A stretch of 33,814 bases of DNA, taken from positions 1-33,814 of IMG/VR virus record IMGVR_UViG_3300032242_000021. One strand, written 5' to 3'. Positions 20,622-24,655 of this stretch are shown here, in pieces. The notes under the pieces are model-generated. The model saw only the letters and a list, made by a program, of their open reading frames with translations. It was not told the DNA's origin and made no database searches. The position numbers and the translations under genes were made by a program. The stretch comes from a virus. The stretch's first letter is position 1, and every line of letters begins with the position of its first letter.

Positions 20622-20807
20622 TTATCTGAAGTTGTACTGTTTAGCAATTTGCAATGCTTCTTGTTCAGTACGACCAAAATACAAATGGCCACTTTTACCC
20701 TCAACCGCCCAATCATTAATGCCAACTTCAATTTGTTGGTCAAGAGTCATGTCATTGAAACTTGGGTTGTGAATTTCGTACGCTGCAAATTGACTTACAT
20801 ATTTCAT
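20622..20807 (-). CDS. Small protein, first gene of the minus operon
   Basis: A 61-residue protein (SQFAAYEIHNPSFNDMTLDQ, then a QEALQIAKQYNFR end) with an AGGAGAAAT ribosome site. It is the first gene after the minus-strand promoter, so it should be among the earliest and most strongly expressed products. No domain or membrane segment is recognised. Confidence 0.75.
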   Translation of the reverse strand: MKYVSQFAAYEIHNPSFNDMTLDQQIEVGINDWAVEGKSGHLYFGRTEQEALQIAKQYNFR

Positions 20808-20845: not shown

Positions 20846-20908
20846 ATGGGTTGAATTATAAGCAGTCTTATGGGTAAATCAACAATTATTTTGTAGGGAC
20901 AAACCCTA
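20846..20908. promoter_or_regulatory. Candidate operator array in the divergent control region
   Basis: Three GGG half-sites, within ATGGGT (20846), ATGGGT (20870) and TAGGGA (20894), lie at exact 24-bp steps. The last is half of a clean palindrome TAGGG-ACAAA-CCCTA (20894-20908). The array covers the minus promoter and ends just upstream of the Cro-like gene's promoter. The spacing resembles that of lambda operators. Only the third site is clearly palindromic. Confidence 0.5.
20855..20882 (-). promoter_or_regulatory. Sigma70-type promoter of the minus-strand recombination operon
   Basis: On the minus strand, TTGATT (20882-20877), a 16-base spacer and a perfect TATAAT (20860-20855). Transcription should start near 20848, giving a leader of about 40 bases before the ATG at 20807. 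GGG half-sites lie on both sides, so a repressor such as the Cro-like protein could control it. Confidence 0.7.
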
Positions 20909-20911
20909 ATG

Positions 20912-20937
20912 TTGCTTTTTTGCAAATGTTATATAAT
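20912..20937 (+). promoter_or_regulatory. Promoter of the Cro-like gene, leaderless start
   Basis: A perfect TATAAT (20932-20937) lies 7 bases before the ATG at 20945, so transcription would start at or next to the A of the start codon. The -35 box is poor: TTGCTT (20912) is only 14 bases away and nothing better lies at 16-18. That would fit a promoter needing help from a bound activator at 20894-20908. Confidence 0.6.
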
Positions 20938-20944
20938 TTAACTT

Positions 20945-21100
20945 ATGGACAAAAATAAGTTTATTGCATTGGCTGGCTCACAGAGTGAGCTTGCCAAGCT
21001 GTTAGGCATAAAGCAACCCGCTGTTGCCCAATGGAAAGCTGTGCCTATTGCAAGAATTTGGCAATTAAAACTTTTAAAGCCTGAATGGTTTGACAAATAG
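20945..21100 (+). CDS. Cro-like helix-turn-helix regulator
   Basis: A 51-residue protein. Residues 12-32 form a helix-turn-helix (SQSELAKLLGIKQPAVAQWK) like the Cro/YdaS family, followed by a short basic and hydrophobic end (IARIWQLKLLKPEWFDK). It lies between divergent promoters next to operator-like sites, so it probably controls the minus recombination operon and itself. No ribosome site precedes the ATG, while a perfect -10 box sits 7 bases away, implying a leaderless transcript. No CI-like partner was found. Confidence 0.85.
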   Translation: MDKNKFIALAGSQSELAKLLGIKQPAVAQWKAVPIARIWQLKLLKPEWFDK

Positions 21101-23781: not shown

Positions 23782-24008
23782 TGTGTCCCCGCTGTGGGTC
23801 TGAAACCCTCAAAGTTATAGATACCCGTTCAAATCCCGAATTCGTCAGCCGCAAACGCCAATGTGAGAACAACCACAAGTTTTACACCAAAGAATATGCA
23901 ATATCCGAAACACAAATATGTGAGAAGCCAGAAACTCCTAAAGCTAGTGGCGGCTCTATCCTGTCAAAGCTGTGGCATGGACAATGGCGTTCAGGCGGCT
24001 CACAGTAA
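23778..24008 (+). CDS. NrdR-like zinc-ribbon protein
   Basis: A 76-residue protein starting in the ATGA overlap with ninB (ATGATG, so 23781 is also possible). The start CPRCGSETLKVIDTRSNPEF and SRKRQCENNHKFYTKE copy the NrdR zinc ribbon, except that the last Cys is replaced by His (CENNH). NrdR's ATP-cone is absent. It may be a stand-alone DNA-binding zinc ribbon acting on transcription. Its last 113 bases overlap the next gene in another frame. Confidence 0.7.
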   Translation: MMCPRCGSETLKVIDTRSNPEFVSRKRQCENNHKFYTKEYAISETQICEKPETPKASGGSILSKLWHGQWRSGGSQ

Positions 24009-24228
24009 TTGGGGTGGAGGTAAGGGGCGTGGCATCAAGGCTGATGACAATTTGGTCGCTGCCCTATGTTTGGCTTGCCACTATGAAATCGATCAGGGCA
24101 AAGACCTAACTAAGGAAGAACGCCAAAGAAAATGGGCAGAGGCTCACATTGGCACAGTTTTGTTGCTTTGCAAACAAGGAAGATGGCCTGTTGAAGTTCC
24201 ATTGCCTTTTGTGGCAGAATTTGAATAG
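23896..24228 (+). CDS. YbcO-like HNH nuclease
   Basis: A 110-residue protein. A basic N-terminus (QYPKHKYVRSQKLLKLVAAL) precedes the zinc-binding core: CQSCG, AAHSNWGGGKGRGIKADDN, then LCLACHYEIDQG. This is the pattern of phage YbcO-type nucleases, which cut single-stranded or branched DNA. The start at 23896 is preferred to 23863. It is the last gene before a strong terminator and overlaps the zinc-ribbon gene by 113 bases. Confidence 0.82.
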   Translation: MQYPKHKYVRSQKLLKLVAALSCQSCGMDNGVQAAHSNWGGGKGRGIKADDNLVAALCLACHYEIDQGKDLTKEERQRKWAEAHIGTVLLLCKQGRWPVEVPLPFVAEFE

Positions 24229-24247
24229 GCTATGCAGTTGCCTTTTT

Positions 24248-24272
24248 GGGGGTTGATTCCCCCGCTTTTTTT
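24248..24272 (+). terminator. Rho-independent terminator
   Basis: GGGGG (24248-24252), a TTGATT loop and CCCCC (24259-24263) are followed by GC and seven T. It ends the early plus-strand block after the YbcO-like gene. The loop doubles as a -35 box for the next promoter. Confidence 0.85.
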
Positions 24273-24280
24273 GGTATAGT
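24253..24280 (+). promoter_or_regulatory. Promoter with -35 box in terminator loop, leaderless start
   Basis: TTGATT (24253-24258), a 16-base spacer and TATAGT (24275-24280). The same -35 and spacing occur in the minus operon promoter. The -10 box ends 6 bases before the ATG at 24287, so the message should begin at the start codon. Confidence 0.65.
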
Positions 24281-24286
24281 GCAAAT

Positions 24287-24655
24287 ATGGAAAAAAATGC
24301 CGAAGTTGCCGAGTTCGTAGCTACTCTGTTTCACAGTGGCACGATTACCCATTTTCAGCATTTGCAGACACGGGAATTTTCAACACATAAGGCGTTGGGC
24401 AAGTTCTATCCCAAGATTGTTGAATTAGCCGACTCATTAGCTGAAAGCTATCAAGGTCGCTACAACACCCGCATGAAGAAGTTTCCTGATGAGTTGCACC
24501 AGCCACAGGAAACCCCGACTGAGTACCTGACACAACTCAAAGCGTTTGTTCAGGAAGCCCGTCAAGAAATCCCCCAAGATACAGAACTGCAAAACATCGT
24601 TGATGAAATTGCCGATCTGATCAATTCAACCTTGTATTTACTTACCCTTAAATAA
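24287..24655 (+). CDS. DUF5856-like helical protein (leaderless)
   Basis: A 122-residue helical protein resembling the phage DUF5856 family, thought to be ferritin-like four-helix bundles. Its signature is LFHSGTITHFQHLQTREFST with HKALGKFYPKIVELADSLAE and SYQGRY. His and Glu residues could bind metal, but this is unproven. No ribosome site precedes the ATG; the promoter -10 box is 6 bases away, so the message is probably leaderless. It heads the small-gene cluster leading to terminase. Confidence 0.78.
   Translation: MEKNAEVAEFVATLFHSGTITHFQHLQTREFSTHKALGKFYPKIVELADSLAESYQGRYNTRMKKFPDELHQPQETPTEYLTQLKAFVQEARQEIPQDTELQNIVDEIADLINSTLYLLTLK

Follow-up and report, generated by a model that had tools for sequence, protein, structure and literature searches.

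The site between 24227 and 24300 of the window, as we call the whole 33.8-kb virus record analyzed here (33,814 nt; IMG/VR IMGVR_UViG_3300032242_000021), is most probably a terminator fused end to end with a leaderless extended -10 promoter, in which the terminator loop is not required across the clade. The original prediction had been that the loop doubles as the -35 box of a leaderless promoter in a compact switch; it is partly supported, in that the composite of terminator and promoter appears to be real. The record belongs to a short-tailed phage with a P22-like portal, terminase large subunit, head scaffolding and major head protein, and also encodes a Sak-like annealing protein, NinB and a DNA methyltransferase. 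Its portal is nearest to those of freshwater-spring phages and lies farther from those of Xanthomonas and Rhodoferax phages, and a Nitrosomonadales bin holds one homologue of its DUF5856 protein at 47% identity.

Anatomy of the site and its proposed function

The site is placed between an early-type operon and a GroES-terminase-portal block. Upstream lies an HNH-type endonuclease gene (phrog_131/DUF968-like; 23863 to 24228, plus strand; PHROGs E = 9e-25, Pfam PF06147 above cut-off), which would be the last gene of the operon ending at the terminator. The gene downstream (24287 to 24655, plus strand; phrog_858) had been called DUF5856-like, an assignment confirmed by Pfam (PF19174; E = 3e-20). 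Direct reading of the plus strand between them found each predicted element in its place: GGGGG (24248 to 24252), the loop TTGATT (24253 to 24258), CCCCC (24259 to 24263), seven Ts (24266 to 24272), then GG, TATAGT (24275 to 24280), GCAAAT and the ATG at 24287. The spacer from TTGATT to TATAGT is 16 nt, and 6 nt separate TATAGT from the ATG.

A T-G pair (24247/24264) lengthens the stem to TGGGGG/CCCCCG, so that the hairpin (24247 to 24264) has six pairs, five of them G-C, and is followed by the T7 tract, as in an intrinsic terminator. Its RNA fold of -11 kcal/mol is only mildly unusual for the composition (z = -1.7). The T7 tract would serve both as terminator tail and as part of the promoter spacer. 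One feature was absent from the original prediction: a TG one base 5' of TATAGT, directly before the TATAAT-like hexamer as TGN, which gives the extended -10 element TGGTATAGT (24272 to 24280). Just 5' of the terminator, RNA folding and comparison of haplotypes point to a small hairpin carrying a conserved GCAGTTGCC box (24227 to 24243). The ATG at 24287 has no Shine-Dalgarno sequence (anti-Shine-Dalgarno pairing is weak, at -2.9 kcal/mol), whereas most genes in the window have one, and no in-frame start was found upstream of it. Since only six bases lie between the -10 and the ATG, transcription is predicted to start on the A of the start codon.

Chance statistics from the window are uninformative, so the comparison of relatives must decide whether the site exceeds chance. 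A promoter scan of the window returned 11 sites against 17.6 in shuffles, fewer than in shuffled sequence, and the two occurrences of TTGATT-16-TATADT, against 0.01 expected by count, concern a pattern built from those two sites themselves.

We propose that the site acts as punctuation, separating one transcription unit of a short-tailed freshwater phage from the next. A polymerase moving rightward through the methyltransferase-NinB-HNH operon would form the GC hairpin and U-tract and stop near 24270. Directly downstream, a host sigma-70-type polymerase would use the extended -10 to begin a new transcript, most likely from the A of the ATG. The DUF5856 message would then be leaderless and could be read by 70S-type initiation at its 5' AUG. 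The loop TTGATT could possibly add a modest -35 contact in the window and in the relatives closest to it. Such an arrangement would save space in a phage genome, as about 40 bases would end one message and start the next, and the new message would carry no leader.

Required and optional parts among relatives

The comparison covered 80 IMG/VR loci encoding the same DUF5856 protein at 83 to 98% identity which, together with the window, make 81 loci and collapse to 43 distinct upstream haplotypes. The arrangement TGNTATAGT-N6-ATG is kept in 41 of the 43 haplotypes, 39 identified by script and two (L129 and L134) read by eye, the script having taken another ATG there. The exceptions are L196, which has no -10, and L166, with 7 nt to the ATG. 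The six bases themselves occur as about 20 different sequences; their sequence is free and their length fixed, which fits selection on distance rather than on sequence. This constant distance and the lack of a Shine-Dalgarno sequence argue for the predicted start of the message at the ATG. Equally, the predicted terminator gains support from a G/C hairpin with T-tract in 37 of 43 haplotypes. Its stem of G-run and C-run is nearly invariant in the clade, and covariation is therefore no test of the hairpin here.

The loop is a different matter. Variants in the clade include TTGATT, TTTGATT, TTTTATT, TTTAATT, TTTGAAT, TATTGCG, the TTAACA type and UUCG, the last in the largest haplotype group. A loop matching TTGACA at 4 or more of 6 positions, 15 to 16 nt from the -10, was found in only 9 hairpin haplotypes, and a -35-like loop is not kept across these relatives. 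Because the loop changes and neither the extended -10 nor its 6-nt distance to the ATG does, we regard the loop as optional. Haplotypes without the hairpin retain the promoter. Three of them (L129, L134 and L137) have a TTGACA within the HNH gene, at 18 nt from the -10; no -35 can be seen in L193/L197 and L199, which are also hairpin-free. The clade thus provides a natural experiment in which required parts (the extended -10 and its distance to the ATG) can be told from an optional one (the loop sequence). The promoter was not found at more distant DUF5856 relatives (L445 to L524, found with the 47%-identical homologue), which suggests a clade-level trait. In seven loci (L158, L161, L172, L175, L177, L181 and L195), 85 to 180 additional bases, absent from sister loci, separate the HNH stop codon from the GTTGCC box.

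A first alternative to the fused, loop-independent arrangement is that TTGATT is a working -35, the same bases serving sigma as DNA and terminating as RNA. We regard this as a tentative reading for the window, and one that is not needed for the clade. A 16-nt spacer can function, loops resembling a -35 occur in other forms in several lineages of the window clade (TTAACA, TTGAAT, TTGCAA, TTGTAA), and the same architecture appears to be clearly selected in the other phages described below. Against this, TTGATT matches the consensus at only four of six positions, and most hairpin haplotypes, including the large UUCG group, keep the promoter without a -35-like loop. Extended -10 promoters, moreover, can do without a -35.

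A second possibility, which we consider unlikely, is attenuation or antitermination, with the GTTGCC hairpin as a control element that would let early transcription run into the morphogenesis genes. The location of the site, with the early-type operon on one side and the GroES-terminase-portal block on the other, would suit such a role, as would the co-occurrence of this hairpin with the terminator: among haplotypes with the terminator nearly all have the GCAGTTGCC box (exceptions are L165, without it, and L198/L200, with GTTGTC), and it is missing in the terminator-less L129, L134, L137, L193/L197 and L199. However, no regulator was identified, pairing around GTTGCC differs among lineages, and the only Rfam match, suhB, is sub-threshold (19 bits; gathering score, 41). 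The GCAGTTGCC hairpin may be the opening hairpin of a tandem terminator. The box was also considered as a second -35 or an activator site at fixed distance, and this was rejected, as it lies about 28 to 40 nt from the -10, varying among relatives.

It is less probable still that the G/C palindrome is a protein-binding operator over a promoter and no terminator at all. Palindromes that overlap promoters can be operators, and the stem sequence itself is conserved, but a T-tract always follows the palindrome, the loop and outer stem vary, and the palindrome sits after the stop codon of the upstream gene. UUCG loops, moreover, are typical of terminators. Finally, a terminator with a coincidental TATAGT, leaving DUF5856 to be expressed by read-through, would accord with a promoter score not above chance in the window alone, but is very improbable given that 41 of 43 haplotypes, terminator-less ones among them, keep the TG, the -10 and the exact spacing of 6 nt.

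Terminator loops as -35 elements in other phages

As a principle, the use of a terminator loop as a -35 is strongly supported by sequence comparisons in other phages, so that this part of the original prediction finds its place outside the window clade. Beyond that clade, exact matches to GGGGTTGATTCCCC in viral contigs include several unrelated contigs with a T-tract and a -10 at 16 to 17 nt. GGGG-N6-CCCC terminators were collected in one set picked regardless of loop and another picked for a following TATAAT. Loops were -35-like in 23 of 53 with TATAAT and T-tail against 6 of 105 without a -10 (Fisher, 2.6e-8), and the effect appeared at a spacing of 17 (20/40), not 15 (1/18). The unselected sample alone gave 5/13 against 6/105 (p = 0.002); these p-values are optimistic, some positives being homologous.

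A third sample, anchored on the protein only, was taken upstream of a small acidic gene (phrog_878-type) on T4-like contigs with baseplate hub, gp32-like single-stranded DNA-binding protein and PhoH genes. A terminator and -10 precede the gene in 52 of 58 distinct regions (L605 to L684), and 49 of those 52 match TTGACA at 4 or more of 6 positions at the terminator loop. Spacing is 17 in 45 of 48 regions of the set used for pair counting, which was chosen for a -35 of at least 4/6. The loops hold a nearly fixed TTGA, while most of the seven inner stem positions covary (G-C, A-T, C-G, T-A) more than in column shuffles, which take no account of relatedness. Recent ancestry would hardly account for a stem that changes around a constant loop. 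The phrog_878-type protein gave no match at 1e-5 in a tblastn search against named phages. Among named phages, 185 records, nearly all of Synechococcus or Prochlorococcus phages, contain a similar cassette, GGAGGGGTTGCGACCCCTCC-T6-ATGC-TATAAT; its nesting was observed directly in Syn1.

Both cassettes resemble the window in nesting a G/C hairpin loop 16 to 18 nt before a -10. They almost always have a -35-like loop, with a spacer of 17 and mostly 18 to 28 nt from the -10 to the ATG, and differ from the window, where the -10 is extended, the loop can be dispensed with and the message is predicted to start without a leader. The window's exact cassette found nothing in named phages but a 25-base, chance-like match. 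When all terminator shapes were pooled, nested designs were not in significant excess (6 against 3.25 expected, p = 0.09), which suggests a feature of certain lineages. Whether nested -35-in-loop sites form a distinct, selected class of punctuation with a built-in interference switch, the window included, is doubtful. In such a class the loop would be constrained as DNA, by sigma, and the stem as RNA, by termination, and a polymerase arriving from upstream would exclude initiation; nothing in the analysis shows switching of the kind originally predicted. The wider survey nonetheless yields a testable rule for other phages, in which two different molecules would constrain loop and stem simultaneously, and cyanophages offer ready test cases. 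Glutaredoxin-like genes were seen directly behind nested terminator-promoters in viral contigs (L353, L361, L403, L343 and L399).

Known composites and other promoters in the window

The nearest known systems are the promoter-early stem-loops (PeSLs) of T4-type phages (Arbiol et al. 2010 and Comeau et al. 2014, as cited through PMC4503421 and PMC3950731), which resemble the window site as short composites of an intrinsic terminator and a sigma-70 promoter between phage genes. The parts differ in arrangement. In the scanned stretches of RB49 and T4 they stand in tandem, the hairpin preceding a complete -35/-10, whereas in the window the hairpin lies inside the promoter and its loop occupies the -35 position. 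A scan of 50 kb of RB49 found three clear composites, each a hairpin followed by TTGACA-16/17-(T/C)ATAAT, and about 104 kb of T4 contained no nested case. Gene shuffling, a mark of PeSLs, was not seen at the window site either: the order HNH, site, DUF5856 is kept in nearly all relatives examined. A published terminator loop serving as a -35 was not found in the literature searched, which does not prove its absence.

Leaderless phage messages have a familiar example in lambda cI, whose transcript from PRM starts at the A of the start codon and has no Shine-Dalgarno sequence. The predicted DUF5856 start would be of the same kind, with no known relation between the two and with the difference that the window start is fused to a terminator.

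The minus-strand operon had been predicted to use the same design. Its promoter does read TTGATT-16-TATAAT (20882 to 20855, minus strand), but the likeness ends there: it has no terminator, its leader is about 41 nt with an AGGAG Shine-Dalgarno sequence before the ATG at 20807, and it is an ordinary promoter. A second leaderless gene of the window is likely the Cro-like regulator gene at 20945 (window 20932 to 21100, plus strand), where TATAAT stands 7 nt before the ATG. It has no Shine-Dalgarno sequence and the weakest Shine-Dalgarno pairing among the genes checked, and most of the listed relatives share its geometry (-10, 5 to 7 nt, ATG). Upstream of this promoter (20894 to 20925), two conserved inverted repeats, TAGGGACAAACCCTA and TTGC-N6-GCAA, look like repressor operators.
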